The position numbers were made by a program, and so were the translations under genes. Source: Sphagnum magellanicum (Eukaryota; Streptophyta; Sphagnopsida; Sphagnales; Sphagnaceae). Taken from it: a stretch of 64,000 bases of DNA. Location of the stretch: NCBI GenBank assembly GCA_021904315.1, contig CM038915.1, forward strand, positions 4,898,001 to 4,962,000, read 5' to 3'. The notes below the pieces were generated by a model. The model was not told the DNA's origin, searched no databases, and worked only from the letters and a program-made list of their open reading frames with translations. Shown here piece after piece: positions 24,478-53,910 of the stretch; within the stretch, counting starts at the first letter, position 1, and every line of letters starts with the position of its first letter.

Positions 24478-24504
24478 GAAAAAAACACAAAGTGGTGGTG
24501 AAAA

Positions 24505-24832
24505 ATGTATCAAATTAAGAAGTATACAAATCCGCCGAGCTTGATGCCACACGGCCGAGCTCAGCATCACACATCGCTGCATCAGCAGCTTGAGCGGCCC
24601 AGTAGTCTTTATGCTGGCAATCTAATATCATCAGCTTCAGATGCATCAGGAATGAATTTTTCTTCTTCTGCTGCTGATCCCAAGCCACGATTGCGTTGGA
24701 CTCCGCAACTTCATGAGCGTTTTGTAGATGCCGTCACACAGCTTGGAGGCGCTGATAGTAAGCCTACTTCCTTCTCAAACCCTTTCTCTAAATTCTCATC
24801 ACATTCTCATCTCCCTCTCTCTCTCCCACATA

Positions 24833-24871
<39 letters not shown>

Positions 24872-27626
24872 CTCTCTCTAAAAAAAACATTGGGTGTGCA
24901 GAAGCAACACCCAAATCTGTGATGCGAGTTATGGGTATTAAGGGCCTCACACTATACCACTTGAAAAGCCATCTCCAGGTGAGAGATTCTTCTTCTCAAT
25001 TTTTTTTTCCTCTTTTTTTTGGGGGGGGGGTTTGTTGGATCCAGTGTAAATTTTGCATAATTTTTTTTTTTTTCCATCCCTGCTTGCTTGCTGAATTTTT
25101 GAATCCTCTGAGATCCTGGTTTTTGTTGTGGAGATGGAGATCATGCTTGGTGTATGAACACTCACGTCCTGAACATTTCTCTCTTTGAAACTTCATTGGG
25201 TCTTTTCTTTTTTCTCTTTCTTTTGCTTTTTTTTTTGTGATTATTGGAATTTTCCAGAAATTTTTTGTTTGCATCAACCAGTGTAGTTCAATTTCATTCT
25301 TATCATGCATGGTCTGTTTTTCTTGCTCCCTGTTTGAATTACTTTTGTAAAATTGAAAGCAGAAAAATGAAAGACTTCTCCGGGTGTAAGAAGACAAACT
25401 TGGTTTTCTAACTGAAACAAAATGGTCATCTGGGCTCGAGTGGTTTTGTAGAAGTTCAGACTTGGGAAGAAACTTCACAGCGATTTGACAAATGTGCATG
25501 ACACCAATAAGGATGGACTATCTCATGGTATGCTTCAGAAAAAATCACATTCAAGCAAACATCTGAACTTAATTATTTAGTCACAACTGTTTACATTTTT
25601 TTACTTGCAGTTGTAAAAACAAACATTGCTGCTAAATCTTGTAATCTTCGAGGCACATATTTGTTGCTGAAGATTATGCTCTAAAAGTTTGAAATGATTT
25701 GTTGGGTTTTTTTTGGGTATACTTATTGTTGGTATGGAGAAGATTTTCAAGAGTTGCTGATTGTTGGTCTTACGTCTTACTGGGTGCCTGAAAGGGAGAC
25801 CTGTGGTTATTTTGGGCCTGTTTTTGCAGGCTCTTCAGATATGCAAGTAACAAACACCAATTCTGCATCTGATAGTGTGAACCCACATCAACTGAATAAC
25901 CCACAAGAGTATGTGGACATTGGGTTGTTCTCTTGGTGCAAATTTTTTTTTGCTTGTGTTTCTTGTTGTAGGATTGAGTAAATGATTCTTCTATGGTGAG
26001 AATTTTTTTGCAGTGGCATCCAAATCACCGAAAGTATTCTCTTGCAAATGGAAGTACAGCATCACCTACAACAACAACTTGAGGTACATCTTCATTCCTC
26101 AATTGGAATTGTGAGCTCAATCATTTGTACAGTTTTGAAGCTCAAAAAAATTCTTCACATGCACCACATATAGAATCATCCTCAAATCAGTTTTGCTGTT
26201 TTGTATCATGAGATTTGTATGTGTTGAACACTACAAAATTCAACATTTGTGTTTCATGCTTTTGTGATTCTTCTTGGCCGAGTAGACAATCTGTCTTGTG
26301 TCTCTTTCTCTCTGTCTCTGTCTCTCTCATTCTTCTTGACCAATGTATATGCATACAACTGGAGTTTTTATGGAAAATGGGTTTGGACTTGGAATGCAGG
26401 TTCAAAGAAGTCTGCAATTGCGGATCGAGGCACAAGGCAAGTATTTACAATCCATTTTGGAGAAAGCAAAGGAAACTCTTGCAGGACATACATCCTCATC
26501 TCCAGGGCTGGAAGCTGCACGTGCAAAACTTGCAGAGCTAGCATCCAAAGTCACCAATGACCCAGTACTCATGGGTCATGGTTCTTTCTCCTTGATGAGC
26601 TTGCCGCCTGGAATGATCAACAATCCTGAGTTTTTGCAACATGCTGTAGATCCACGAGGAGGAGGAGGAGGAGGAGGAGGAGGTGCATTATCACTTCCAC
26701 ACTTGCGGCAACAGCAACAGCAGCTAATTCCACGCCAACAATCAAGGGTGTCAGATTCATCATCACAGAAAAGCTACCTGACAAGTCTAACAGCTAACAA
26801 GCCAGAGGACAGTGGGGGTGCTTCAGTAGGTGGCGAGCACCAGACAGCTACGGGTAAGATCAAAAGAGCTTACCTGCATTCCTATACTTATTCAGAGATG
26901 GGTGATGATCATGGTGAAAGGGGGCAGCAAAGCAGGCGGCTTTGCGACATGAGTGCTAACTTCCTGCCCCTGCAGGGATCCAGCAATGCTAGAGCTGAGG
27001 ACAGGCTTGCTAAGGCTGCAGCTGCTCTCAAGGGCATTACCAAATTGAAGGGTGCAGGTGGTGCTCGACCCCCCTCCTCACATTGGACTACAGTAGCTTC
27101 ACAAGACAGTCTCTCATTCAATGCTGCTGGGATGGTGGGGACAGAAGGAGGTGGCAACAAACCCTCTTCTCAGGCTGGAGGTATAAGTAAGAGCATGCAG
27201 CAGGGGCGATCCAACAAGGCCGGCAGCAGCTCCTCCTATGCCAATTACATGATGCAGCAGGGATCCTTAGCAGGCACAGGAGGGGCTTTGTCTTCTTCTG
27301 CTTTTGCACTTGAGCCACCCACATCCAGGAGAGCCACTGCACTACAATCAATGCAAGCAGAGGAAAGCTTGAATGGTGCTGGTGATGGATCTCCCCATAC
27401 TTTTTCCTCTGCCACTTCATCACTACAGCCTGGGAAGAATATGTATCATCATGGTGAAATGGGAGCAGCATCACCCAGCCATATAAGATTATCTGCTGCA
27501 ACCCCAACACTTGCAACACCACCGTATGTTAAGGTAGAAGGATCTCTTGATCTAAACCCTGGAAATGGGATCAGAATGCTTAGAGGAAGTGAGCTTGACC
27601 TCAATTCTTATGGCTGGGAACGATAA
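24505..27626 (+). CDS. MYB-CC (GARP, PHR1-like) transcription factor, copy B
   Basis: Predicted nuclear DNA-binding protein and tandem paralogue of copy A (3962-6491). Exons: 24505-24757, 24902-24978, 25452-25527, 25830-25908, 26014-26083, 26400-27626; the spliced CDS of 1782 nt encodes 593 residues. Exon lengths and phases match copy A (77, 79 and 70 nt exons identical in size). The start MYQIKKYT is shared. The MYB/GARP repeat runs KPRLRWTPQLHERFVDAV to LTLYHLKSHLQ-KFRLGK. The coiled coil is ITESILLQMEVQHHLQQQLE, then VQRSLQLRIEAQGKYLQSIL. Exon 6 adds a glycine run from a GGA microsatellite (about 26657-26682), a glutamine-rich stretch, an SQKSYLT motif shared with copy A, an Ala/Ser/Gly-rich region, and two LDLN motifs at the very C-terminus (GSLDLNPG and SELDLNSYGW). 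LDLN-type motifs resemble EAR repression motifs (inference). An in-frame GT-AG segment (26854-26975) may be alternatively spliced. The family is certain; the subclade is not. Confidence 0.9.
24818..24879 (+). repeat. CT microsatellite in intron 1 of MYB-CC copy B
   Basis: A CTCTCT run of about 60 bp lies just upstream of the acceptor at 24900-24901. It could serve as, or interfere with, the polypyrimidine tract. Apparent ORFs rich in Leu/Ser derive from it. Confidence 0.9.
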
Positions 27627-30037
27627 ACCTTCTTCAAAACTGATTCACTAAAACCATTATTGTATTAAAACTGCATTTGAATGAAGCAAACTGCCTACAA
27701 ATCCTTGTCAACTTGTTTTTCCAAAACAATATGCTATGTACTATGTGGAATGCTGTGATGACCCATGACATTAGAACACCCATATCTCACAATTACATAC
27801 AACACATAACCAATCATTCATTTAAAGCATATGTTAAACTAAACTTAAATCCAGCGGAATTGAAGGTCCCCATTTTATCATGTGGTTGCATATGATGTTT
27901 TTTCTTTTTGAACATGTAAATCTTTGCAATGTGCACCAAAACATAATCATCTTCTTTGTCGCTTTTGTGTATCTTTACATCATTGCTCTTTGGTTTGAGT
28001 TGTCTTCAAATCCCATAGCTAATTGATTCTATAAATGGGATTTCTAGTTTTCTAGCAAAGGGACATGTAGTCTTGGAACACTTTTCAAATTCAAGAGTCA
28101 AGAATTGTTTGGCAAAGGTCCAAACACCAAGTCTTAAGCTTTGTTCATTTACGATTGCACATTAGAGAGGACCTTAAGGACCTACTATCACAAACTTGCC
28201 CTCTCCATGTATTTATGGATTTACAACACTTTAAAAATGCATTCAAAGTTAAGTGCTATTTAAATATTGTTACATAATATTGTCATTGCATTATAACACA
28301 ATGTTTGATCATCGCAACGTGTTACAATGCAATCACAATAGTGTATCAATGATTGTATTAATGTTTAGTTAGCATTTAACTTTGAACACATTGTTAAAAT
28401 GTTGTAAAAACATTAAACCTTATAAAAAGCAAGTTTGTGATTAGTAGCTAACCTAAAGGATTGACCATCAACAAGCCTAACCTTCCCACGCATAGAGAGA
28501 GGAACATCAAGGTATGAATAGGAGAGAAGAAGGAAAAAGTCTAAAAAATCTAAAACCTTCCAAATTGATCTAAGAAAGTAAGTACACACATTACACAAGA
28601 TGAAAGAGTCCATAAGGACAAGCTAAAGTTCAATTCTCCAAAAATGTTGTTAGGGTCATGGCCAACCCTAAAATGAGGCTAATGCCACCTAATGAAATGG
28701 GGAGAAAGGCACGTTGACACGTTAAACTCACCTAGGAAAATATAAAGACTTTGGGCTTGAAAGGATGTTCAAATGTTTTGGAAAACACATGTTGAACAAG
28801 AACAGGACATGTAAGAATTCTTTTATGTAATAAAAATTGTTTTATGCTTAATTTTCATGTGAATTAATGGGCTTTAATGTTATTGGCCCCAATATATTAC
28901 ACCTCTTGAAAGATCACCCATTTGAATACTATTTCGATCAAATTGAAATTAATTTTGAAGTTCTCATTTTGAAAAAAAATTACAATTAAAAAATCATTTA
29001 AAATTTAATAGTTTTTGCTCCAATAGTCCAAAAATTGTGAAACAATAAACATGCACACCACAATTCATCGAAAGCTTTTTGATGGCACCAAAAGTAGAGT
29101 ATGGGGCCTTATGGTTTGTTAGATTGAAGGCCTAATTGCATCCTAATCGAACTCACATCCGTACATGTTCAGGTTCATAACTTCATTAATCCTATTGATG
29201 TTTTGTTAATCATCACCACCAATCTTTTCCATCACATTACAAATTTGACTTGGATTGGCACATCCCGCAATTATTGGCCTACCATGTTGTGTACAAATTC
29301 ATCCCATTGATCTTATAAGGTGCTCATCTTTTATATTGTTTACATGGCAATGAACACATCAAAACACATGGTTCTATTTGTGATGTCTTTGTATCCATTG
29401 TAATGGAAGTTGTTTTTCATGTGGTTTAGGAACAATTGCATGTTCTTCCTTCTTCCACATTTTAGACATATGGATGCAATGTGAACATTGTCTTTTCTAA
29501 AGATGGAATTTGGCTCCTTGCAAACATTGTCAATGTGGAGTCCACCATCGTAAGTCTATTGATCCACACATCTTCTACACATAGTTTTTCAACATCAAAA
29601 GAAGCCCAATTCAAAAAAAAGGAGTTATCAAAATCCCCATCTTGGAAATCATTTTTTCCCATAAGGATATAAATCTTTGATTGTTTACACAAACAAACCA
29701 ATGACTTTTTTCAACATTATGTTAACAATGTGTGAGGAATGAACGACTTTGATCGACCCCTTATAGTCAATCTTAACCATTTATCTTAAACAAAAGGTTT
29801 TAATTATGCTCTAAAAATTGCAAGCTTCCACAATCCTCAATTGACAAGCAATCATGAAGTTGGCTACCTATCGACTACCACCACTCACAAACCCTTCATC
29901 CATTATCACCTCATACATCTTATTTGTTGTAGGTAGGTGAAGAATGAAAAATGGTTTCTACCTTTCTCGTCAAACACAACAATTTGTCATAATTTATTAA
30001 TGTTGGATAATGAATCACGGTATGCTCGGTGGTGCAC
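27627..30037. other. Downstream of MYB-CC copy B, no gene recognised
   Basis: Presumed 3' UTR followed by AT-rich DNA. The ORF pair 29462-29701 (-) and 29481-29672 (+) overlaps and has no domain I recognise. The last four bases, GCAC (30034-30037), are repeated just after the retroelement's right end. Confidence 0.5.
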
Positions 30038-30348
30038 TGTCATGCCCATATGCACGGCCTCATGCATGATGGCCGGTTACGGGCATGCCCGTCATATCTT
30101 TTACGGTTATTGTATGGTTGTAAGGTTATGAACGTTCTTAAGTGACTATGCGCTATTAGGTTTAGGGTTTCAGCTTTTGGTGGCTGTATAAAAGGGCCAA
30201 GCCCTTCCCTTATCCTTTAGTTTTTCTAGAATTCCTTTGTATGAAAGTTGCCTCCATAGTTCACTTGGATTTTCTAGATGCTCACGATGGTTACTGCACG
30301 GCCACCATCTACATACACCTTCACTACTTCTTTGCAATTTATTTCAAT
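30038..30348 (+). repeat. Terminal repeat A1 (left end of the retroelement)
   Basis: 311 bp, matching A2 at 38889-39199 at about 97 percent by eye, same length. Most differences are transitions. It holds the TATA box and predicted RNA start. Unlike a full LTR it is not followed, or preceded, by the B segment. Confidence 0.9.
30187..30193 (+). promoter_or_regulatory. TATA box of the retroelement
   Basis: TATAAAA inside A1, conserved in A2. With usual plant spacing (about 30 bp) transcription would begin near 30219, at the AGTTTTTCTAGAATT stretch that is complementary to the proposed primer site. Confidence 0.7.
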
Positions 30349-30360
30349 TCTAGAAAAACT
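30346..30360 (+). other. Candidate self-priming primer-binding site
   Basis: AATTCTAGAAAAACT here is the exact reverse complement of AGTTTTTCTAGAATT at 30219-30233, which sits where the RNA 5' end is expected. This matches the Tf1-type self-priming layout, in which the RNA start folds back onto a site just after the left terminal repeat. No tRNA-type primer site (beginning TGG) is seen at this position. A GGCGCTGG-containing stretch near 30635 is a weaker alternative. Confidence 0.6.
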
Positions 30361-31264
30361 CTATTTCCTGTTGCTTCATGTTGAAAGCAACAGATTTCTT
30401 GCACTTTTGAAGTTCTTGAGTTGTTACTACTAGTGTGGTGTTGTTGCTGCCGGAAGGAACGCAAGGAAGGAGCGCAAGTTGCTACTACTGTTGTTGCGAG
30501 AGGGAGCTTTTGTGTTACATTCAAGCCAACCAACAGAGCAAGGAAACAGGTTTTGAAGCCATGTCTCTTTTCTCTCTGTCTTGCTCTCGTTCTCTCTTTG
30601 AAACTTTCGAGTAAAAAAAAAACAACAAAAATTTCGGCGCTGGCCACCTGCCATTGCTACAGAGCAGCGTAGCCCTGCCTACCGTTGCAGCGACGCGAGT
30701 TACCGCAGCGTTGCCACGACGCGTGTTGCAACAGCGCCGCAGTGTCGTCGCGACACATGCTGCAACAGCGACGCAACGCTGTCGCGATGCGAGCTACAGC
30801 ATTAGAACGTTGCAAGCTTGTAATGTTGCAACGTCGCAAGCTTGTAGTGTTGTAGCATCGCGAGCTTGCAGTGCTGAAGCAACGCGAGCTTGCACCGCTG
30901 CAACTCCACGTTACCATCGCCATCGCCACAAAGCTCATGGGTGAGCTACGGCGTGGTGACCTTTGACGTTGCGGTGCCGATTTCCGTCCACGGACTCCGT
31001 CCATTGACTTTCGTCTGTCGGACTTCCGTCCTGTCGTCCTGTTGTCTTGCACCCTGTTGTCCTACGTCCTGCCACCCTGCTGTCTTACGTCTTGCCATTT
31101 TACGTCTTACCTTTTCATCCAACATCTATTTGACTTCCGTGCAATATTTGTGTGTCACAGGTTATTTTCAACAACGCACTTTATTCTTCAAATTGTGCGT
31201 TGTGTTAGAATTTTGTAGTTAGTGTTATGTACTATCACAGCATTTTAGGGCATGGGACAACACC
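30361..31264 (+). repeat. CpG-rich repetitive leader of the retroelement
   Basis: Between the primer site and the gag start lies GC-rich DNA with two degenerate arrays. About 30660-30915 repeats CGAGCTTGCA-type units with GTTGCAAC; about 30980-31110 repeats CTTCCGTCC/CCTGTCGTC-type units. CpG density far exceeds the flanking DNA. ORFs at 30421-31222 are repeat products and lack known domains. It might be a packaging or methylation-target region (inference). Confidence 0.65.
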
Positions 31265-34200
31265 ATGTCCTCATATGAGAGCACTACCGCTAGGCCAGAG
31301 CCCAGGTATCAGCTACGAAGTAACACACAGTCCTTTGAGCCGATTTCTTTAAGCTCACAATCTTCACGACGGTACCATCAAGCATCTAAAACACCACCGT
31401 CGTCTAGTACAACTCCTACTAGGAATTCAGGCTCAGGTTACACTACATCAACGGTACATCAGAGTCCATTTGGAGGGGCTCATCAGTGGACTACGCTTGT
31501 TGCCGTGCCTACTTTCGCACCATCACCGTATACTCCGTTGCAAGCTGTGACTTCAGCACCCATATACACCATGGAGGTGAACAATTCCTCTGGGAGAATT
31601 GAGAAATTCAGCGGAAGGCCAGGTACTATTTCTTTGAGGGAGTTCAAGGCAACCTTCTTAACTGTGGTTTGTGAATTGGAGCTTAAGTATGGGGCTAATT
31701 ACACTAAGGCGTTTGTATTCAAACAATTGGCTCGTTATGTGCACTATGAGGCGTTGGATGTCTATGAGCAACATTCTGCAAGGATTTTGGGTGTCACCCA
31801 GATTCCCAATTCAGCATACGCCATAGCCATTGCCACCGCCTCTCAAGCTGCATTACAAGCTGCAATTGCACATCACGGAACTGTGTCGAATAATCCAGAC
31901 CTGGTACCTACCTCAGTAAACCTTTCTCCTCAACAACTCATTGCTGCGACTGCAAACATTCCTCCCACCACCGATGTGCCAGCTTTTGCTGATTCAGTGG
32001 GGGAGTTCTTCTGAATTCTTGAGCTAGAATTTCCAGTCAAAAGTTTCGAAAAAATTCTGCAGCTCGCCACCTTCTCTCAGCAAAAGGATGAAACCCTCAA
32101 GATGCTTTACAGGAGGCTTCTCAAACTCAAAGAGGATACACAGAGCATCATCGACTTGGAAGCTGCCCATCGGTATCTTCGTTCTTTGGAAGGTACTCCA
32201 ACACTCCACGCACAGGTTTTGCAACAAGTCTTTGCAGAATTTGGAGACTCGTACACTTTGCTGGATGTGTACAACATTTCCGAAAAGTTGGAATTGGCTC
32301 ATGCACACTATGAGGCCAGCACTATGAGGCCTCCATCACGTTCAAGGCCTCAACCTACACCAACTCCGCCAACTAGATCATCACATTCTTCTTCAAGGAC
32401 TAAAGCGGTGCACACGGCTACACCCATCCTACCTTCTTGCAACTACTGTGGCAATCCTACCCACAAAGCTAGTGAGTGCAACATTCCTTCTGAAGATCTC
32501 TTTTGTGATTATTGTGGAAAAGAAGGACATTAGAAATCTGTCTGTTTTGCCAAGTTCCCAGAGCAGAAGCAACTCCGATTACAACGACAAAATCTGCCAG
32601 CATCTTTTGCTGTACCTCACCCAAAAGCCAAGGCACCTCAGCCTTCCACTCAGGCTTTGCCCACCAAAGGTAATTCCAACAAGAATGTTAAGAAGAAGGA
32701 ACACAATGCTGACAAGAGGGAGGTGCTTCAAGCCCATGCAATTCAAGTTCAAACTTTACAAAATGAACTCGAATCATTAAGGGTTCAACTTGCTAATCTA
32801 AAAGGCAAGTCCTCCCAACCAGCTAGTCATGCCCAACCTGTACAAGGTTCAGGATCACGAGAGGGACCTCCTAGGTCGTTCTACGGCCTTCCACACATGG
32901 TTGGGGAGTATGTTCTTTCCACTCCACGCAATTCTAGTCTCACACCAGAATTGGCTACTTATTTTTGCCCTTCCTATGTCACGGCACAAGAAGCTAGTGT
33001 GGCACCCAGAATTTCTACCACTAGGCAGGTAATTCAGACTGATGGATTCGCATCTGGTTCAAGTCTTATTACCAAGGCTAGAGGAGTTCGAGCAGTCATG
33101 CCACAATCTTTTCGTCCTCTCAACATGGAAGAAGAACGCACCTTGTTGGCGAGGGGGGAGGAGATTACTACACCACAAGCTATTAGGGCATCAAATTCTC
33201 GTGTCCTAGGAGTACATGTACATCAAGAAAACACACAATTTTCCACTGATCAGCTTATGGAATGCCAACTTCAAATGCATGAAATGGCGCAAAAGCTTAT
33301 GAGTACACCATTGTTTAATTTTCAAGATTTGAAGCTAAGCACCAAGGACATAATTGCAATCTTAAAGGATACCTTGAACATTACATCAGGTCCTCTACCA
33401 ATCCCTGATTCACATGCTATAGAGGTCCCATCTAACACCTTGGAAAGACAATTGATTGGCTCACATGTTGCAGATGGCGTTCGTAATTTGGTCACTAATT
33501 CTAGCATGGCTAAACTAGTAGGCTTTCCTACCTCTGATTCTACATTCACATATCAGAAGGAAGTTCAGATCACCTCACTTGTGGATTTGTTACTCAGCAA
33601 AAGTGTTGTGGATAGCCATTCTCTCCACAAAGTCTCTCACTCATTTTTGAAGGTGGTGCCTAGTGAAAGAACTTCCATCGCCACCGAAGTTGCCATTGTC
33701 GACAATACTGGGTCAACAATCCAAGTGGGAGGACATACACCTAAAGTAGTACTTCTTGACATAGGTGCCCAACTAGTGATTCTTGGAGTTAAATTCGCCA
33801 AGAAGATGGGCATGCTTGACTCCAAACTACGGAAATCTATGTGGCAAATTCGCACCGCTGGTGGGAGCGTAGAAGAGGTATTTGGGGAAAGTTCGAAATT
33901 GATTACACTTAAGTTCAATGAAGGTACATATCAGGAGCTTTGCTTACAGGTCAGATGTTTAGTCACCAATGCCACAAGTTATGATGTGCTCATCAGGCAA
34001 GAGGCCCTGTTTCCACCAGGTTTCACAATTGACAACAGGTTTGAACATGCATACTACCGAGTGGATTGGGAGACTGATGGCCACCACCTAGGATACATAC
34101 CCCTTGATTTACATGGGAACCATAGTCCTATGGCTCACCATTATATGCTCAAGGAAGCACACACCATTTCCTACATCCAACAAGCTAGCCACGAATGGAT

Positions 34201-34426
34201 AGAGGGAATTGAAGAGGAGATAGCTTACGCTCAAGCTACTGAAAGTTTGAAGGAGGTTCCTACTGACATTCAACATGGACCAGAGATTTTACAAAGGTTC
34301 AAAGTAGCTCACAAACCTTTGGTCAAAGCTTTGTCTAGTTTTGAGAGCATGGAGAGCCATGGCGAACCGATTAAGCCATTACTTCGTCAACTAATCACTT
34401 GGACACCACCTAAGGAAGGGATTACA

Positions 34427-35380
34427 TTACTAGAGCTCTTTGGTGGTATTGGTACAGGTCTCGAAGCCCTACTACAGTCAAGGATGGTGGTTCGGAGGTA
34501 TTTCTACGTAGACATTGATCCTATTGCAAGGCAAGTGGCGGCATCAAGAATGAAAGAGTTCACAACAAGATTTTCGCAACAGTTTGCAACCACCGCATGG
34601 AAGGCTAGTTTCACATTTTTGCCCTCTGACATACAACTAATTCAAAAGAAGCATATGGAATTACTTGGCCTTGTCGACCTCATCATTTCAGGTTGGGAGT
34701 GTCAAGGATTTTCAGCGGCTGGATTTGGAGAAGGCTTGAGTGACACAAGATCTAGTCTTTTCACGGACATGGTACGATTAATCACCTGGGCTCAATCCAT
34801 TTCTCCTACACTTGGTTATGTAATTGAAAACACTCCTTCTCAGCTTGATCAGAGGGAGAAAGTCCAGGAGCATTACACACTGGTCAAGCATTACCTTGGA
34901 GAGCCGCTCTTACTTGATGCGGCACAATGCGATTCCTATGTGCACCGGCTGCGCAATTGGTGGACCAACTTGGCACCACTCTCAGTTCTGTAGCTAGTTC
35001 TGAAATACACTATCAGAGACCCCAACCTACAGGTTTCTCACATATTGGATGATCAAAGTTCTTGCCAACCAGTTACAAGGTAAGAAAAACCTTCTTGGTT
35101 TCCTGCGAACACAATAGGAAAACCAAGAGGTGCTTGGCCCACCTTTGTCTCCTTCCCAGGAGCACACGCCTTTCAAGGAGATGGGCCAAGCCTGGTGTAT
35201 TGTCATGCTTCAGCCACTTGGGATGAACCAAGCCCATAAGAAAGAGAAAGAGCTATGGGGTTCCAAGCTGGCACTACTAGTCACACTAAGGTGACTAGAT
35301 TGGAGCGTAATGCTCTACTAAGGAGAGGCATGGACCTGAATTCCCTTACATGGTTGTTGGTAACTTGTGTACTCTTTCAA
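34427..35380 (+). pseudogene. C5 cytosine-DNA methyltransferase-like domain inside the retroelement polyprotein
   Basis: It lies between protease and RT in the same frame. Motif I (SAM binding) is LLELFGGIGTG at 34427-34459. An acidic YVDIDP follows (motif II-like). Motif IV is ISGWECQGFSAAG with the candidate nucleophile Cys codon at 34700-34702; E replaces the usual P before the Cys. Motif VI is ENT (34826-34834; ENV is usual). HRLRNWWTNL (motif VIII-like, from 34943) recalls the HRARYFWGNL region of DNMT3-type enzymes. After stops at 34991, 35081 and 35237, an MGFQAGTT...LL block (about 35255-35370) fits the motif IX/X region. Order I-IV-VI-VIII-IX/X fits DNMT-type rather than rearranged DRM enzymes. 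Three internal stops silence this copy. Activity of intact relatives is unproven. Confidence 0.75.
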
Positions 35381-38300
35381 ATGTACATAACACCAACACT
35401 GGTTCAATCAACTTGCAATTCTAGTGATGCAACCACATGGCACCCCGACCACGTACACTTGCCTATTTTCAACATTCTACATTTCACTCTCAGTGTTGGG
35501 GGGGAGGAGGTACCATGTAATTTGACTCAAGTTGTGTCTAATACACCTGGAGGTGCATCAGCTTCTGGAGAAACAATCACAACCTTCTACGAATCTACAT
35601 AGTTGGATAGTGGAGAACCCAATACACCAGGTTCTTCAAACACACTTTCCAACTCCATTCCAAGTGTTTCCAACTACCCTTTCATTATCGGGAACCAGCT
35701 CACCAAGAAGGAAAGAGACCAAGTCACAAACTTGTTAATTAAGTATGAGAATGTGTTTGCATTCTCAATGAAAGACTTAGGTAGGTGTAAGACCATGCAG
35801 TTTTCTATAGACCTTACAGATGAAACACCCGTCTATCGAAGGAAGCATAGGTTGAGCAAACATGAATGGGAACTGGTAGATGAAAGATACAAAGAGCTCC
35901 ATGAGGCCGGTCTCATTCAGCCATCAAGTTCTGATTTCGCAACCGCTACAGTAATGCCAGCAAAGAAAGATTCAACTGGATTATGGACTGAGAAAAGGAT
36001 GTGCGGGGATTATAGGCCTTTGAACCTAGTTACACCGCAGGATATGTACCCCATGCCCATCCCTGAAGAATTTTTTGATAGCATTGGAGATTCAAACATC
36101 TTCACAATTGTGGATCTGAGGCAAGGTTTCAACCAGATTGTGCTCGTTGAGAAGGATCACAAGAAAACAGCATTCCATGGAAGCAACAAGTTATGGGAAT
36201 GGCTTGTGATGCCTTTTGGATTGAAGAATGCACCTGTCTTCTTTCAACGAGTCATGGACCAAGTTCTCAAAGGGGCAGATTTCCTGAAGTGTTACATAGA
36301 TGACGTCCTAGTGCATAGCAAGGGACTCCTGCAGCATTTGGCTCATCTTGAGGAGTTATTCAAGAGGCTCCACGAAGTCAATATGAAGATCCATCCTAAA
36401 AAATGTGAGTTTGCTGTCACCTCAATAATCTACCTTGGACATAGAATTTTGCCAAATGGTACCATGGCTCATTGGGCCAAAGTAGTAGCCATTTTGGAGA
36501 TGCCCAATCCTACTGATGTTCACACGTTGAGGAGCTTCATTAGACTATGCAATTACTACAGAATTTATGTCCAAGATTTTAGTACTATTGCTCATCCTCT
36601 CTATGCATTGTTAAAAAAGGATGTTGTTTGGACATGGAGTGATGAAGCTTAGGAAGCTTTCAACACACTCAAGGAAAAGCTTTCAGAGTTCCCCATTTTG
36701 AGAAGACCTGATTTCAACAAGGTTTTCATTCTACACACTGACTGGAGTGCTCTTGATATTGGAGCTATTATTGGCCAACTTGATGAGGAAGGCAAGGAAT
36801 ATGTTATCGCCTATGCATCTCGAAGCAACAACAAGGCTGAGAGCAACTACTCCTCATACGAGGGGGAGTGCCTTGCTGTTGTATGGGCCGTCATACATTT
36901 CAGGCCTTATCTTTATGGCACCAATTTCACTTTGTATACCGACCACCAGCCTATCAAGTGGTTAATGACCAATGATAAGCTTACTGGTAAGTTAGCTCGT
37001 TGGGCACTTATATTTCAAGAGTATGAGTTCAAGGTTATTCACCGACCTGGTATTACACATCAAAATGCGGATACCATGTCACGAAGACCCCTCACTACCT
37101 CTGAAGATTTTTCAGAAGCCAGGTAAGATTTTGACCAGATTCCAGTAGTACCTATATCTGAGGCATCTAGTTATCTTGCATTACTGCAATGCAACTTGGT
37201 TGAGCAACCCATTCTCGATATATGGGAGGACTTGGACACTCTGAGGTTTTTTCAACATGGGGAATATCCTCCCCAAGTTACGTCAAGTCAGCGAGATCGC
37301 ATACAACAACGATCCAAACACTACTCATGGAAAGACAATCACCTCGTCCGATGCTTACCACAAGGCGACAAAGTGGTTCCACCACCACATGAACGACATG
37401 GTCTTATTCAAAAGGTGCACTCGGAGCTTGGACACTTTGGAGTTAAGCGTACTTATAGCCTTCTCGCTCCTCGTTACCATTGGAGAGGTATGTATGCTCA
37501 AGTCCGAAACATCATTGCTAGGTGTGAACAATGTGATAGAGTGAGAACTTCTTTCTCCTTTCGACAACTCACGCTTTCTCCATTCCCTATTTAGGGCATG
37601 TTCTATCGTTGGTCATGTGATTTAGCTAGAAAGTTACCACAAACCTCTAGGGGTAATGTTTACATCATGATTATGATTGAGCATTTTTCAAAGTGGGTTG
37701 AACTTGTTGCGCTACCAAACAAGTCATCACACAACACCAGTCAGGCTTTCTTACAACAGGTTCTAAGTAGATTTGGGGCTTGTGCTGAGTGCCTTCCTGA
37801 TCAAGGATCAGAATTCAGGGGAGAATTCCAAGACCTACTTGACCATGCTCTCATTGACCATCTTCGGACTTCAAGAAATCATCCCCAAGCTGATGGCCTT
37901 GCAGAAAGGATGGTTCAAACGTGCAAGAAAGGACTTCGGAAGATTTGCCTCACTAAGAACAAAGAGGATTGGGACCTGGCCCTCCCTTACATCGCCATGG
38001 GTTACAAGATGTCCAAACACGCCTTTTTATCTCATTTCTCTCCTTATTTTTTACTTTTTGGGAGACACCCCATTCCACCCTCTTCCATTACTGCTCAAAT
38101 GGACCAGGTTGTGGACTTGGATTCCCCAGCCACTTGGGCTAGGGTCATTGCAGAAAGGGCTGCTCTATTCAGGAGGGTTATGCCCATGGCCATGGAAAAC
38201 TTGTCCATTGCACAACATTGAGACACCTTACAGTATGCACACACACGAAGTGGCAGTTACAAACCTAAGGTGAGATAATTTGATGTTGGTGATTTTGTGT

Positions 38301-38512
38301 ATCTTCAGCGACAACCCAATGATACTTTAGACACTTCTTCCGGTCGCACTATTTTGAGGATTAAGGCAATCAGGCCTTCAGGTGTGTTGGAGTTACAAGG
38401 AGCTGATGGACGCACAATTCGTGGTCATTCCAAAAATTATGCGCCCTGCCACTTGCCGAACTTGGATCCTACCATCATCACGTCAACTTGGATTCCTCCA
38501 CTTGATTATCCA

Positions 38513-38665
38513 TGTCAAGTATGTCAGAGGACGGACGATGCTGATCAGATGCTACTTTGTGACAACTGTAATGGTGGATGCCATCTCTTCTGCCTCAAGC
38601 CGGAACTCACTCAAGTTCCCGTCGGCAATTGGTACTGTTCATCATGTTCTCCTACAGCACCTTGA
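38513..38665 (+). pseudogene. C-terminal PHD finger of the retroelement polyprotein
   Basis: A C4HC3 zinc-finger pattern is complete: CQVC, CDNC, HLFC and CSSC, with the PHD-typical spacing and a tryptophan two residues before the last pair (NWYCSSC). It follows the integrase C-terminal region (DFVYLQ...) in the position where chromoviruses carry a chromodomain. PHD fingers read histone H3 tails, so a role in choosing chromatin targets for integration is a reasonable inference. A stop at 38276 separates it from the integrase core in this copy. Confidence 0.8.
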
Positions 38666-38706
38666 TTCCTACTCAGACCATGCCACGCTTTTCCCGGCTC
38701 AGGTCT

Positions 38707-38714
38707 GGGGGGGG
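38707..38714 (+). other. Candidate polypurine tract
   Basis: Eight G residues (then A) directly precede B1. In Ty3/gypsy elements the polypurine tract sets the left edge of the 3' LTR, so reverse transcription would define a repeat starting at B1, not at A2. Confidence 0.6.
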
Positions 38715-39371
38715 ATACATGAGAATTTCATCTCAGCCTCCCTTGTGCATTGTGTATATATGTGTGTGCATGTATCTCTTTGATTAGTTTCTACCTTTAA
38801 TTGGTTTTAGGCTGTTTGTTTAGTAGAGTTTTTTGCGGATTCACACCTTTATGACATTGTATGTCACGACACTACACGTCACGACAACTGTCATGCCCAT
38901 ATGCACAGCCTCATGCATGATGGCCGGTTACGGGCATGCCCGTCATATCTTTTAGGGTTATTGTATGGTTGTAAGGTTATGAACGTTCTTAAGTGACTGT
39001 GCGCTATTAGGTTTAGGGTTTCAGCTTTTGGTGGATGTATAAAAGGGCCAAGCCCTTCCCTTATCCTTTAGTTTTTCTAGAATTCCTTTGTATGAGAGTT
39101 ACCTCCATAGTTCACTTGGATTTTTTAAATGCTCATGGTGGTTACTGCACGGCCACCATCTACATACACCTTCACTACTTCTTTGCAATTTATTTCAATA
39201 TACATGAAAATTTCATTTCAGCCTCCCTTGTGCATTGTGTATATATGTGTGTGCATGCATCTCTTTGATTAGTTTCTACCTTTAATTGGTTTTAGGTTGT
39301 TTGTTTAGTAGAGTTTCCTGCGGATTCACACCTTTATGACACTGTATGTCACAACACTACACGTCACGACA
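38715..39371 (+). repeat. Right-end repeat block B1-A2-B2 of the retroelement
   Basis: B1 (38715-38886) and B2 (39200-39371) are 172 bp direct copies. A2 (38889-39199) sits between them and matches A1. The B1/A2 junction reads GACA-AC-TGTC, like a joint between two LTR ends. B2 begins right after the point where A1/A2 identity stops. B1 is absent from the left end of the element. Confidence 0.9.
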
Positions 39372-39375
39372 GCAC

Positions 39376-40538: not shown

Positions 40539-43500
40539 ATGGGATCTCCAGTGACATGGGCACGATATTTCCTAACAAAGATCAAGGTCTCCCTCGCTCA
40601 AAGCATCAGGGTATGTCATGCAGCATAGATTTGACCCTTATGACTGTCTTTTTTATCTGGACATGGTGTCTGCACATGGAGTGTTTTTATTTCAGTGGAA
40701 TTCATCAAGTTCTTCATTTTTTCAGTTTTCGTTTGTAGATGGTTGTCTTTCTTCTATAGATTTTATCATTGCAGGATTTCCCCTGAAATAGGATTCGAGG
40801 ATAGGATTCCTTTTGTTGATGCAAAGATGCAAAATGGATGATGAATTGATGCAGAGTTATGAGCTGGGGAACATCAAGGAGAGAGAAATATATGATAGTA
40901 TTGTCAAGAATGTAGTACAAGGTCGTCTCACATTCAAAAGGCTTTTTAAAGGCACAGAGATGACACCAACTTTTGCAAGTCATGGGGAGACATTACTTAT
41001 CCGATCACTTCCAAGGCCTAGCCCAAGGTCAGTTATAACTTGCATTCCTAGCAACTATTCTCAGTGTGCTTTCCTGCATGATCTTATGATGGTGTGAAAT
41101 GGCTTCTGCAATTGTATCATGATTTTATCCATGCTACTAGTTTTCGGGCCATCTTCATGCTGAAATGTACAGTTCCAGATGCTATTTGAGGTGAGAAACA
41201 CTTAATTTTGGTTACAGATGAGGGTTCTGTATACCAAAAGTGGTAATAATTGTCTAGGCAACTGCAAAGTTGGCATGCCACACTTATATGGTATAGCTGA
41301 TTTTAGAGTATTGTTGCAACCACTTGCTTGCACTAATACAGAGTGAGATAGATTGTTCGAGTTTGGTGTAGAGTGTCATTTCCTGAGATGCCTTTTGTTG
41401 GTATCTTTCTGGTTATGGAATCATCCCATACTTGAATCACTGCTAAGATCCATGGGTCATTGAGTCTGGGGTGTTAAGGAGGGACTTTCCATCTCTTTTT
41501 TTTCTGACAACATTGTCTTTATCTCTGGCAGGTCAGTGTTTGTGGGGGATGTTGTGATGTTGGAGGATCCAGATAATCCACAAAGGGAGCTTGTCCGACG
41601 GGTTGCAGCATTAGAAGGGGAGGAGATGCTCTCATCAAATGACAACGAGGAGGGTTTTAAGTTACAACCTGGAACCTGCTGGGTGCTTTGTGACAACGGA
41701 GGCATAAGCCCAAAGGTACTGGTACAGATATCAACTTTGAGCTTGGAACTCTGATTTCATAGTTAAGATGAGCTGCTGCCATGCTATGTATTGACACACT
41801 TTGTCAAATGCCCTCGCGTGTGAGATGAAAAGAACCATACTATGGAAAGTGGGCTGCTGTGCATACAAATGGCCCCTCTTGATCCTTGATTGTACTCTGC
41901 ATCAATTCAGGCATCATTCTATTAACTACTATTGAATATCAAGCCCTTGAGAAATCATGCAATAGTAGGGATTGTCATGGGTGGAAAATTAACCACATGC
42001 TCAACATGGTGCTCCTTGCAAACAAAGAGATCCAGTGAAGTCACCTGCAGATCTCAGGGACACGGATTAAGTAAACTTTTAGGTCAAGTCTGGCAATTCA
42101 AGTAACTGCAAGATGCCCATCTTTTAAGGTTCTATTTGTTGATTCATCTGTTCCAAAGGTCTAATGTTTATGGTGGCTCAGGGACAGAAAGGCAACTCAG
42201 AATGTAGTACAACAAAAATGCAGACATAGAGCAGTGGTTAGGTTGGCCATGGAAACACAAAATGTACTCAATTTCATGAGAAAAGTAACTGTGCTTGCAG
42301 ATGTCATCATTTCAAGTTGGTACTTGCAGGAGGCTGTAGATAGCCGGAGCTTTGGGCCACTGCCACTGAGCAATATAATTGGACGAGCCATCTATTGCAG
42401 CCGCTCCCCTGTTGAACATGGCTTTGTCCAAAACAGGTGAAGAGCAGCCCTGTGGCAGCACTTTTTTCTTTCACTGCCACTTTCCTGTTAGTGTAGCTTT
42501 ATCAACATACATGTCATTGAGAGTGGGCACTTTCAACTCTTATTTCTGTCTACTCTTGTCTTCCATTTCTTGGTGTTTCTTTTCCCTTATATTAATCTTC
42601 CCCTGTTCTTTTCCCTTTCTGTCTTTCTTTGTTTCTTTGTCTGGTCTTCGTTGTGGGGTCTGTTGCTAGCCAGTAGTATGGCTGAGTCTTCCCGTTGCTT
42701 CCGGAATTGCAGCAGAAACTCAGTTCGCAGGCTGGTGCTTGGCACTGTCCTTTACCCACTGTAGGGAGCTGATGAAGTCAGTGGGGAAGGTGTGATAGTT
42801 AAGTCACTATCATACATGCTACTGTTGATGGTCCCTGAACAGGTGTGAGACTGGCACTTTCGTTCATACTGCTGTGTGTTTTTCGTGTTTTGTTTTGTTT
42901 CTCCCCTTGACTGGTTCTTTCTGTGGCTTCCTGAAGAAGTGTTAACCTTGCTGTCTTCTTCTTCATCGTGAGAATGGAGATTTCTCTATTCTTATGAAAG
43001 ATATATTCCATTTCTTGGTGTGACCCAGGAGTTTCATGAAAACCCCATGAAACCTAGTTTTATAAATGCAGCCAGTTCTAATTGTCTCACAGAAGTTTCT
43101 AAGTGGCTTAGCTCCTTGTATAAAGCTATCCTGCCAGTGGTCAATGACCTGCTGGTTGCCAAGTTGCAGGAAGCTGATGTTGCTTCTCAGACTAGTTGGA
43201 GTTTTAAAGATTCTTCAGGTGGAGTTGAAGTCGTCAATTTCTGGAATTGCCCTAATGCTGACAAATTGTGGTCTCTTGATTTCTCAATACTTTTTCTAGA
43301 AAGATCAATCTACTAGAGTTGGAAGCTAGAAAGAGAGTTTTTGCTAGGAATTTTTGAGTTTCATCATTTGAGAGGTCAGCCCTTAACTTTCAAATGTGTC
43401 TGGTAGAAGGAGAAGATAAAGTGTATACAATCCCTCCATAGCTTCAAGGAAGCAAAAGCTTCAGATTTATCTTTAGTGGATTCCCTGTTTCTCTGCTTTT

Positions 43501-43822
43501 TCTTCCTCTTTTCTTGTTTTGGCTTTTTCTTTACTTTCCCTCTCCATAGTATGGAGAAGTTCTCAGCACCTTTGAATATCATTACTATAGAGATGTAGTT
43601 GCCAACTTCCCCTTCCTAGTTTACAGATGACATGCTTGCCAACATTGATCCCTGCAACTTCTCAGGGTCATTTTCTTGTATCCATCTTCTCTGGTCAGGG
43701 AATTAAATCTCCAATGTGTTTTCTAATGTTTCACTGTTTTATGTAGTGATGAGGCAATGCATGTGGATTCTCCAGTTTTGGCTGTTGAGCTTGATGTGGA
43801 AGAAATGACAAGTCAATCTTGA
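40539..43822 (+). CDS. S26 (type I signal peptidase-like) family protein, probable pseudoprotease
   Basis: Exons: 40539-40610, 40855-41027, 41532-41715, 42330-42436, 43747-43822; all junctions are GT-AG and the 612 nt CDS gives 203 residues. The start ATG has a strong GGCCATGGG context. The layout follows the mitochondrial inner-membrane-protease/signal-peptidase fold: an N-terminal segment (TWARYFLTKIK), GTEMTPTF at the box B position, VFVGDVVMLEDP, RRVAALEGEE at box D, then CWVLCDN and DSRSFGPLPLSNIIGRAIY. It resembles a short plant family (Arabidopsis At2g31140/At1g06200 type, from memory). In active S26 enzymes box B has the Ser nucleophile (SM.PT) and box D a Lys; here Glu and Arg stand there, so catalysis is unlikely. 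The last exon encodes an acidic tail (LAVELDVEE). Intron 4 (1.3 kb) holds one arm of an inverted repeat. It is convergent with NECAP. Confidence 0.88.
42655..43005 (+). repeat. Inverted repeat, left arm (intron 4 of the S26-like gene)
   Basis: About 350 bp matching the reverse complement of 46275-46690. Shared blocks include ATGGCTGAGTCTTCCCG, CCACTGTAGGGAGCTGATGA, CACTATCATACATG, CTGTTGATGGTCCCTGAACA and AATGGAGATTTCTC. By eye identity is about 80 percent with small indels. A 22 bp piece (GGGAGCTGATGAAGTCAGTGGG) recurs near 45061. Confidence 0.85.
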
Positions 43823-46797
43823 ACAGTTAGTGTGAAAGTCAGCAAATTACCTCTGCAATTGACTGACAAGGTTGGTCACTCTTGTCTGTCTGCAAGTTTT
43901 TTGGAGGTGTTGGATTTGCCATTGTAGTTAAGCTAATGTCACCCAGGTATTCAACTCAGATGCAGTAGACAGAAGGTTTTCTCTAGTCAAGGTGTTTTCG
44001 ACCAGCAGAACTGAGTCATTTACATCTGTTTGGCAACTCAGTGGTAAAAATATGTTGGTGAACCATTGGTAACTGTTAAAGAATTCATTTCTGTTTCTTT
44101 GTGGTTCAAGTGTGTGCTTTCTGTAATGCAGGTTAATGTTTCTAACAAATGAAGGAGCTAAGGCTGGCCTTCTGACTCAAACTTTCTTCTCAACCTTACA
44201 AAGCTCAAGCTCACTATTTACCATTCCAGAGCTCGACCTTCTTTATACTTTCTTCACCTTTGTATCCTCAAGCTGGGGTAGTAACAAGTATCTGGAAATT
44301 GCTGCCAAAGCTCTAGGAAATCCAAAAAGATTGCATTGTTACATCTGTTAGCACTGACTTCAAGTGTCTGAATTTTTTACCTCCCAACTGTGTTTAGGTG
44401 CTCAAATCACAGGCACAGATGTCAGTGTGCAAGATCTGCTCTGATAACTGTCACCTCCCCACAGCAGATATGCTCTGTTAACAACTGTTCAAGCTTGGAA
44501 GCTCAATTGGGTGCGTGTTTAGGTCTGCACCTTGAGCATCAATGTTCCCAATCTTAGACACAGATGCTTACAATGCCTAAACCACCACTTTTAATTCTCT
44601 TTACTGCAAATTATTGGAAGTATTATAAAGTAAGGTGCTATTTTGGTCATGTTAGTTTTAGTTTTGCTGAAACTGATAGAATAGTTCCCTCAATGCATTG
44701 GTGTTGAGATTTCTCTGTAATTTCATAGATATAGTCTCCAGTAGTGACTTTTGCAGAAGTTCAGTATCCAAGTAATCACTGTCATGTGTTTAAATGAGAT
44801 GGTCAGGGTGCAAGTATGCTCCAGACACCACCTTGTATGCAGGCCTCTTTGTGCCTTATGCTTACATGCTTGCTTGTACAGGGACAAAAAAAACAAAATG
44901 ACTCCTATGTTCAAAAAGCTAAGTGCTTCAAAACTGTTTACTTCTTGGATGAGTGATATGTTCAGCACTAGCTGATATCAAGACTGAGTGTCTAGAAGCT
45001 TATGACATAGATGTTTGTATAAGGTTTTTTCCAAATTTGGCCAGGTTGATACTAAGCATTGGGAGCTGATGAAGTCAGTGGGCAAGATTACCTTATAAGC
45101 TATAAATGACAAAGTTAACAGTCTCACACAGTATGGCAATCTAGATTATACTTAACAACCAGTTATTCTGCTTGTATTAGTTTTGATTATGCTCAAGCTG
45201 ATGAAACAATTTATTACAGAAAAATTTGTCTTTAAAGTATTGTTGTAAAGGATACTCTGCAGTTCATTCATATGTACATTAGAAAATTAGAGATTGCATC
45301 ATTAGGCTCCAAGATTTGTCACTATTCCCACATGTTACCTGGAACAACTTGGATGGTGAAGACAACAGAGACAGATATTGAGTGCAATATTCACTAACAC
45401 ATATCACATATTTTGCTCAAGTCGTCATCCAACTGCCACAAGCCCAGAATCAATGTCGCAACTTTCTGTGCCAATGAACTGTTGACAGCTCTTCCTCTCA
45501 CCCTCAATTCTCAGCAAGCTGCTTCAGCTAGCAGCAGTCTGTTGCAGTGTTCCTTCACATGCTGCTCATATGTATAAACCCTAGCTCTGAAGGAAGTGAT
45601 CACCTGCAAATAGAATAAATTCATAAAGTAACAGATTCTCTTTCCAGCGAAGACCAGTAACGGGTTACCCAAGACTTTTTAACTGAAAAAAATTGTCTTC
45701 CAAAGAAAGTGTGTCAGACTATCTTAGTAACCCTGACACACAATGTTGAACTCCATTTGGCTTCAGGCTTGAAGTTAAAGTCTGTTACATTGTTCACCTC
45801 TACAGTCAAACCTCTAATATGAAGAGTACAGTTTTGAGCTGACACTGGAAATTACTGAAACTAGTCTTGGGAGCCTTGGCCCCACAGAATTAGTAAAACC
45901 CCAATACATCCTAAGAGTTCATACATGGTCTAAGACCCACTATCCTGTCCTCAATCAGGAAGATGTTTGAATTTTTTGTGAAATGCTCATGTATCCCTGA
46001 TAGCGAGACTGATGGTGGTGAAGCCATTAAGTGCAATCCGTTACCAGAAAGTGAAACTCCCGTGCATGAACAGCAAAAGCCAACAGTTACTGCATGCTAG
46101 AAGATGGTTCTGAACATATCACATTAACCTTTTTGACTCTTCCCTGACACCATGGAAAGTGGAGACTAACAAAGGAAGCATTCATCATGAGTCCCAGATA
46201 AGCTTTGTTCTAAATTTCCCACAAATGCTTACCACAGAATGTGTGGTCTGCTGTCTAAAGTTGTTTGTCAAAACATATAAACTTAATTATATCTCTCATA
46301 AGAATCGAGAAATCTCCATTCTTACAATTAAGAAAAAGAAAAGCAAGGTTAACTTCTTCCTTGAGCCACTGAAATTTCCAGGGGCAGGAAAGACAAAACT
46401 GAGAACAAAGGACTACGAAACAAAAACCAAACAAGGACAAAATAAACAAAATAAACATGAATGCAGTATGAACAACAGTGCCAGTCTCACACTTGTTCAG
46501 GGACCATCAACAGTAACATGTATGATAGTGACTTCTCTATCACAACATCCCCACTGACTTCATCAGCTCCCTACAGTGGGTGAAGGCCAGTGTAAACACT
46601 AACCTGTGTACTGAGTTTCTGCTGCAAATCTGGAAGCATCGGGAAGACTCAGCCATGCTACAGGCTAGCAACAAACAACACAAGGAGAAGACACAAGAGA
46701 GCAAAACACAACAGGATAGACTAAACACACAAAAAAGGGCAGCAGGGAAAAACATAGACCAAGTGGGCTTACAAGAAGCTATATAAACTTATACATA
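43823..46797. other. Intergenic between two convergent genes
   Basis: It includes presumed 3' UTRs of both genes. ORFs at 44136-44351 and 44723-44975 have no known domain. The right arm of the inverted repeat lies at 46275-46690 near the NECAP stop codon. No other gene is seen. Confidence 0.5.
46275..46690 (-). repeat. Inverted repeat, right arm (3' of the NECAP gene)
   Basis: The reverse complement matches 42655-43005. It begins about 108 bp beyond the NECAP stop codon and may lie in its 3' UTR. Relative to transcription, both arms have the same sense in their respective genes, since the genes converge. Confidence 0.85.
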
Positions 46798-52736: not shown

Positions 52737-53910
52737 TTATATGATAATATCATTCATTGTTTGTGTATTAAATGCAAGGGTGAAGCCATTTAAATAGTAT
52801 TGTTGCTTCCAAGCAACTCCGTAGCAATCATCAAGGCACAAAGAGACATGGGACTTGACGTTCCTAAAAATGAAGGTAGTTGCAAAAGTGCAAAAGGTCT
52901 TGGATTTTGAAGGGGTCAAAAAAATCTTTAACCAAGACATTGATGCCAAGTTTGTGTATAAGGTCAAGTTTGGCACCAACTTTGTTTCTTGGAACTACAA
53001 GCCATGATTCTTGTTCATTGCCCCATTTTATAGTGTCTACAGTAGTTACTCACATAGGTGTAGCCTTAAATTATGTTTCCCCATTGAAGGTGTTTTTATT
53101 CTTTGATAAAGGTGGTTCCATGGCAAATAACGCCAACTCCCACCATATAATTTTGTTTTCAATTTCTTTGAAAAACAAGATTCAGTAGTTGGACCACAAG
53201 GTGGGCACCCCACATGGCCTTTAATTACACAACTAACAAATAGCCCGTAGGCTAGAAAAACACGTATGGACCACATGCACATGTTTTTTAATGTGAATGC
53301 CTTTTTTGAATATGCAATAAAGGCTTGTACCCCTTTCCACATCATTTGCAATTCTTTGATCAACATTTGCAAGTACACATTTATGTTTCCAAATGTCACT
53401 GATTCCTTGCTAGGAATAATTAAGGCCAATATCAAAAAATGCAATTTAGATACCATCCAAAGGGGAAGATTGTAATTTAGTAAAATCATGAGCCTTATAA
53501 AATCACATGAACTTAAATCACCAAATGGATTGACTCCATCAAGTGCCAACCCTAATCTCACATATATTGCATGGATCATTAGCAAAAAATTTGGCCATTT
53601 GTCATTAATGTGTTTCCAATCCATGGAATCTAGAACACTTCGAACCAAACGATCTAAACTAACACCATGGTTATGCTAAATCAACAATTTTGCCAAGGAT
53701 TTGCATTTGTATATGTGTAATAACCATGAAATTAAAGGGAAATGTCAAAGCACTTTCCGTGGAGTTTTTGTTAACCTTTCAACATATCTACATGTGTTAC
53801 ATTTTGGACACCATTGGACATTTTTTAAGGTGTCCCAAAAAAATACACACCCATTTGTGCATGCATGGATTGAATCTAATTTAATCCAAGTACTTCAATT
53901 GAGTTAAGGG
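52737..53910 (-). pseudogene. Decayed CACTA (En/Spm) TNP2-type transposase
   Basis: Read on the minus strand, frames in order contain a WCPKCNTCRYV zinc-type stretch (about 53820), SLDRLVRSVLDSM near 53650, then VRLGLALDGVNPFGDLSS, then YNLPLWM and LALIIPSKESV, then INVYLQMLIKELQMMWKGV, and a CPPCG motif with the preceding AYGLF stretch (to about 53200). These are hallmarks of plant TNP2. A final frame near 52979-52737 is less certain. Several stops and frame changes rule out function. Terminal CACTA repeats were not found. Confidence 0.8.

Follow-up and report, generated by a model that had tools for sequence, protein, structure and literature searches.

How can a retrotransposon whose enzymes are of the Ty3/Gypsy type come to carry the split direct repeats of a DIRS-type element? 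The question is raised by a 9334-nucleotide (nt) element on the forward strand of contig CM038915.1 of the moss Sphagnum magellanicum, lying within the 64,000-nt stretch (positions 4,898,001 to 4,962,000) that was analysed here as a whole and is called the window; all coordinates are those of the window. The parts of the element stand in the order A1-internal-B1-AC-A2-B2, that is, as split direct repeats of the PAT/Ngaro kind. The answer that we favour, with modest confidence, is that the element is of Ty3/Gypsy type and stands here as an integrated copy, now decayed, derived from a circle with two long terminal repeats (LTRs) that was opened by the DDE integrase at an internal palindrome. What the sequence supports best is the more general statement that the copy would have been integrated from complementary DNA (cDNA) joined end to end, through that palindrome.

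Organization of the repeats

The left end of the element is formed by A1 (30038..30348), the repeat half that starts with TGTC and holds the promoter and primer half. It is 96.8% identical to its internal copy A2 (38889..39199), with mismatches at 10 of 311 positions. The right end is formed by B2 (39200..39371), which ends in GACA and is 95.3% identical to the internal copy B1 (38715..38886), with mismatches at 8 of 172 positions. Neither pair contains an insertion or deletion. The preliminary description of this locus had called the members of each pair equal, which is too strong; the positions, the order, the TGTC and GACA tips and the GCAC flanks that it gave were all found as described. 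Neither match can reasonably be due to chance, blastn giving E 4e-149 for the A pair and E 1e-76 for the B pair. Transitions account for all but two of the 18 differences, that is, for 16. The divergence of the A pair is not different from that of the B pair (Fisher p 0.46), which fits a single origin of both.

The borders of the repeats are exact. The A match stops at 30348/39199 and the B match starts at 38715/39200, so that the A2/B2 joint (39199..39200) can be read as a flush junction between the end of A and the start of B, these being the predicted ends of the cDNA. B1 and A2 are separated by the two bases AC, and an identical AC, in which the GCAC on the left side ends, precedes A1. This GCAC (30034..30037) is repeated directly after B2 (39372..39375), the match being 4 base pairs (bp) and not 5. 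LTR elements have TG...CA tips next to a target-site duplication, and the tips TGTC...GACA beside GCAC have this form. The length of the duplication agrees with the 4 or 5 bp given for Ty3/Gypsy elements (PMC6317226).

A full LTR is not present at both ends: A stands on the left and B-A-B on the right, and two equal LTRs are met only in the cDNA proposed below. Just ahead of A1, the only resemblance to B extends over 12 nt (29954-29965, with an E value of 1.2) and is at chance level, in keeping with the earlier remark that B is missing from the left end. When the element was compared by blastn with both flanks, that is, with the rest of the window, there was no match at E 1e-3.

Because A-B would pass for an ordinary LTR of 483 bp with the tips TGTC...GACA, the copy might be thought to be a conventional element that was rearranged after insertion, the left B having been lost and a B having been duplicated before A2. 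This would have required that two events hit the same borders exactly and would have left no trace of B beside A1 beyond the chance-level match. The primer site, described below, adjoins A1 and not B, and the B1/B2 pair is not less diverged than the A1/A2 pair. We reject such a rearrangement, on account of the exact double event, the missing left B and the position of the primer site, as very improbable.

Predicted ends of reverse transcription

A putative TATA box, TATAAA, is situated in A1 at position 150 of the repeat (30187..30192), and the predicted transcript start at 30219 lies 32 nt after it. The first 15 nt of the predicted transcript (30219..30233) are perfectly complementary to 30346..30360, a site that spans the border between A1 and the internal region with 3 nt in A1 and 12 nt beyond it. 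Elsewhere in the internal region, not one of 8320 windows of 30 nt is complementary to the 40-nt start region over 12 nt or more, and in the folded RNA of the primer region 14 bp of the 15-nt complementarity are paired. Directly after A1 there is no TGG by eye; a tRNA primer site was rejected, a self-primer being the better fit. The primer site that had been placed after A1 from the outset is thus there, and can now be identified as a candidate self-primer site. The Tf1 primer has a length of 11 nt. Self-priming is predicted for the Tf1/Sushi group and for the plant Tcn1 clade (PMC6317226), and the arrangement found here is that expected for self-priming from the 5' end of a transcript in the manner of Tf1, Sushi and Tcn1.

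At the other end of the internal region, a G-rich tract, GGTCTGGGGGGGG (38702..38714), abuts B1. From its position and composition it is a probable polypurine tract, in agreement with the earlier proposal of one before B1. With the self-primer site at the border of A1 and this tract at the border of B1, the LTR of the cDNA should be B-AC-A, 485 bp long. The linear cDNA would then measure 9336 nt, which exceeds the element by the two bases AC; this agreement follows from the layout and provides no independent evidence. An AATAAA signal was found in neither A nor B, and that the UG-rich B provides a signal for the 3' end of the RNA is a guess from its composition.

Ends of integration

The tips TGTC and GACA face each other only inside the predicted LTR, at B1-AC-A2. 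Here they form the imperfect palindrome CACGACA-AC-TGTCATG (38880..38895), which has inverted symmetry at 6 of 7 positions around a 2-nt spacer and is the presumed site of cleavage by the integrase. The predicted outer ends of the cDNA, ATAC... and ...CAAT, are inverted at 2 of 4 positions and are without TG...CA tips. We infer that the ends made by reverse transcription and the ends used for integration are different sites. Four sites in the element pass a loose palindrome filter, namely the site at 38880, one at 30931 and one in each copy of A, and it is the match to the actual tips of the element that singles out CACGACA-AC-TGTCATG among them.

The palindromes in the A copies are perfect and 14 nt long (ACGGGCATGCCCGT, at 30079-30092 and 38930-38943). 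That in A2 was also picked up by a scan for bacterial promoters and terminators, which is not meaningful in a plant.

Proposed formation of the observed order

The following cycle would account for the layout. Transcription would start in A1, about 32 nt past TATAAA, and the 5' end of the RNA would fold back onto the self-primer site, where A1 meets the internal region, to prime its own minus strand. Strand transfer would take place via the copy of this region in A2, and the plus strand would begin at the G-rich tract before B1, giving the linear product [B-AC-A]-internal-[B-AC-A]. Flush ligation of its ends would produce a 2-LTR circle, in which the DDE integrase would make a staggered cut at one of the two B-AC-A palindromes, freeing two CA-3' ends. 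As these are joined to a target with a 4-bp stagger, the AC would be lost and the inserted copy would read A-internal-B-AC-A-B. B2 would be absent from the next cDNA and would have to be remade in every round by end ligation; it may supply the 3' end of the RNA.

These products were followed with symbolic blocks. A 2-LTR circle opens to A-internal-B-AC-A-B, which is the order observed, or to A-B-AC-A-internal-B, which looks unable to replicate. A 1-LTR circle gives A-internal-B, as does the linear cDNA cut at both palindromes. Unligated linear cDNA can be cut in three ways, and the observed layout results from none of them. The A2/B2 joint can thus be read as the place where two cDNA ends were ligated flush.

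Ligation need not close a circle. In a linear head-to-tail dimer or concatemer of the cDNA, cuts at the first and third palindromes also release A-internal-B-AC-A-B. However, six pairs of cuts are possible, and the remaining five yield four further products, including a short A-B and A-internal-B, and two separate cuts are needed where a circle needs one; such a dimer is an unlikely source of this copy. The preliminary description had proposed a self-consistent cycle through a circular intermediate. On paper the cycle does close for a 2-LTR circle, but its product is not peculiar to it, since the dimer gives the same.

The coding region

The recognised domains lie in a single gag-pol frame (31223..38665) that is interrupted by 11 premature stops, so that the copy is dead although its plan can still be read. 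Its decay looks substitution-driven, mostly by transitions, the domains being still in frame and the repeats free of insertions and deletions. A Gag zinc knuckle (CCHC, 32438..32479) was recognised as a motif by eye and has no Pfam match. It is followed by an aspartic protease-like region (33719..33895; PF13650, E 0.0019, below the curated cut-off), a C5 cytosine methyltransferase (34430..35335; PF00145, E 1.4e-9), the reverse transcriptase (RT) with YIDD (35603..36652; RVT_1, E 5.2e-29), RNase H (36653..37126; PF17917, E 1.8e-38) and a DDE integrase with an H2C2 zinc domain and the rve core (37127..38221; E 1e-17 and 9.9e-12). Protease, with its match below the cut-off, RT, RNase H and DDE integrase follow each other in the order of Ty3/Gypsy Pol.

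The methyltransferase is interrupted by stops and is DNMT3-like. Its best match in the Protein Data Bank (PDB) is DNMT3A, a weak one (E 8.7e-5), and HhaI and DRM2 match still more weakly; the part after 34993 has no Pfam match and was assigned by eye. As read by eye, its motifs stand in the unrearranged order. The integrase core has the Gag-Pol of Ty3 (7q5b) as its best PDB match (E 7.2e-9). It retains D, D and E, the second D and the E being separated by 34 residues. The C-terminal tail of the integrase (38279..38665) carries a PHD finger (38513-38647; PF00628, E 1.1e-11), whose best matches are BAZ2B and WSTF. It occupies the place of a chromodomain, for which there was no Pfam match at the C terminus, and possibly acts as a histone-tail reader for targeting.

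All 17 stop-to-stop open reading frames (ORFs) of at least 100 residues that overlap the element were scanned against Pfam, nine in a first batch and eight in a second, to which two short stretches from the main frame were added; the second batch, including these stretches, gave few matches, all below the family cut-offs. No tyrosine recombinase (PF00589) was matched in any of the 17 ORFs. An encoded tyrosine recombinase was therefore rejected, a DDE integrase being present, and the original assignment of a Ty3-type RT and a DDE integrase in place of such an enzyme holds.

A recombinase might have been provided by another element. The whole RNA would then be copied and circularised with B1-A2 as a splint, as in a DIRS-like cycle, and the repeat order is indeed that of PAT and Ngaro (PMC4157794). 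Against this stand the DDE integrase, the 4-bp flanking repeat and two borders that would have to be coincidences, namely the flush fit of the end of A to the primer site and that of the start of B to the G-rich tract. We regard a borrowed recombinase as highly unlikely.

Precedents for the cleavage of circles

The integrase of foamy virus cuts the palindrome of its own 2-LTR joint and leaves 2-nt 5' overhangs (PMC1180852), which is the geometry expected at GACA-AC-TGTC. In HIV-1, preintegration complexes reportedly cut 2-LTR circles open and integrate them, linear DNA staying the main substrate (PMC4372172). In both viruses the integrase cuts an LTR-LTR palindrome, which resembles the cut proposed here. 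Their palindrome, however, is the joint of the cDNA ends and their main substrate is linear, whereas in the Sphagnum element the palindrome lies inside the LTR.

Several points weigh against the circle as the precursor. The whole case is built on a single copy. There are two equal palindromes in a 2-LTR circle, and cutting the wrong one would yield A-B-AC-A-internal-B, a wasteful outcome unless one site is preferred. The internal site is short and, with four sites passing the loose filter, not unique by its symmetry. A 4-base match such as GCAC has by itself a 1/256 chance of arising, and GCAC ends in AC, the same two bases as the spacer. For the primer region, the RNA folds are moderately but no more than moderately better than those of shuffled sequences, with z-scores of -2.48 and -2.59, and 1 and 5 of 200 shuffles, respectively, fold at least as well. 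According to the title of a 2002 paper, a circle carrying an LTR junction failed to be integrated by foamy virus integrase. Finally, PMC4372172 states that retroviral 2-LTR circles have long been held to be dead ends and that an earlier study detected no HIV-1 integrase on such circles.

Relation to known elements

The layout itself has been noted before. Gypsy elements with a DNMT3 in Pol were described from the charophyte alga Klebsormidium nitens by de Mendoza et al. in 2018, and the legend to their Fig. 4 gives them DIRS-like repeats and Gypsy domains (PMC5890265). The Sphagnum element shares with KnitGypsy-Dnmt3 the Gypsy domains, the DNMT3-type methyltransferase in Pol and the DIRS-like repeats; this likeness is to the published description and not to the sequences, and the DNMT3 assignment is through the weak PDB match given above. 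In the available portion of PMC5890265 no mechanism for the layout is seen, be it self-priming, a palindrome, a target duplication or a cycle, and the words 'PHD' and 'circular' do not occur in its main text. The claim, made at the outset, that this life cycle is undescribed can consequently be upheld for the mechanism but not for the layout: no explanation of how such a layout functions seems to have been given before. Among the matches listed in a literature search, PMC5890265 was the only one with a split-repeat element and Gypsy enzymes, a weak negative from mostly open-access literature without preprints. DNA-methylase transposons were stated in 2019 to be absent from land plants such as tracheophytes (PMC6338049).

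The algal report makes the layout less novel and, at the same time, makes the present copy less likely to be an accident. Were it one, the family would integrate its linear B-AC-A...B-AC-A in the normal way, and this copy would come from a 2-LTR circle that was, exceptionally, inserted through a palindrome that is there by chance. Only one copy has been seen, and in HIV-1 reverse transcription regularly yields 2-LTR circles as a by-product (PMC4372172). Yet TG...CA and inverted symmetry, which the predicted outer ends of the cDNA lack, are both present at the internal site, and a 4-bp repeat flanks the insertion; with a DIRS-like layout reported for the DNMT3 Gypsy elements of K. nitens, a one-off event seems improbable, if not negligibly so.

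The elements of two other groups resemble the Sphagnum element in part. Elements of the DIRS order such as PAT and Ngaro are not known to have a target duplication of 4-6 bp, and here GCAC stands on both sides. PAT and Ngaro have the same A1-internal-B1-A2-B2 repeats but their own tyrosine recombinase, in contrast to the DDE integrase and 4-bp GCAC repeat of the Sphagnum element (PMC4157794). The Tf1, Sushi and Tcn1 elements have Ty3/Gypsy enzymes and predicted self-priming (PMC6317226). These are chromoviruses, whereas the Sphagnum element has a PHD finger at the position of the chromodomain and split repeats. Ordinary LTRs are carried by Tf1, Sushi and Tcn1.

Searches of contig collections added no relative. 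The RT piece had three pattern matches and the integrase piece two among viral contigs, a collection unlikely to hold plant elements, and none was confirmed. Among bacterial and archaeal contigs the RT piece had 11 pattern matches, of which one was confirmed, in a gammaproteobacterial bin; at 37% identity over 52 residues it was rejected as too weak and too short. The direct repeats of at least 60 nt in that bin form two families, of 67 and 62 nt.

Other features of the window

Two related gene regions of the MYB-CC type (Pfam) are situated about 20 kilobases apart, at 4092-6491 and 24502-27626. They share stretches of 93 nt at 85% and 98 nt at 83% and probably represent a local duplication. 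The window also contains a DUF1681 gene. As the MYB-CC type is plant-specific, this gene content points to a plant or a streptophyte alga as the host. At 53049-53675 and 54086-56602, a fragment of Transposase_21 (tnp2) lies close to four nested inverted repeats, whose arms of 118-156 nt are 86-90% complementary. A large inverted repeat at 42648-46686, with arms of 156 and 93 nt at 86% and 85%, is possibly a foldback element.

Implications

Linear DNA is held to be the main substrate of integration, and the question of a route through circles was reopened in PMC1180852 and PMC4372172. The anatomy of the Sphagnum element seems to require such a route, which would make the question directly testable by a comparison of joints across the genome. 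The usual approach to finding LTR elements is to seek equal repeats at both ends. Programs of this kind could miss or truncate elements built like this one.

We consider the chances evenly balanced that, in a lineage of DNMT3-carrying Gypsy elements in streptophyte plants, the ends for integration have become separate from those of reverse transcription, and that end-joined cDNA, whether circle or dimer, is there an obligatory precursor that a DDE integrase cuts at a palindrome inside the LTR. If this is true, convergence would have led to the DIRS-like split repeats seen here, with an unrelated enzyme, and split direct repeats would not be diagnostic of tyrosine recombinases.

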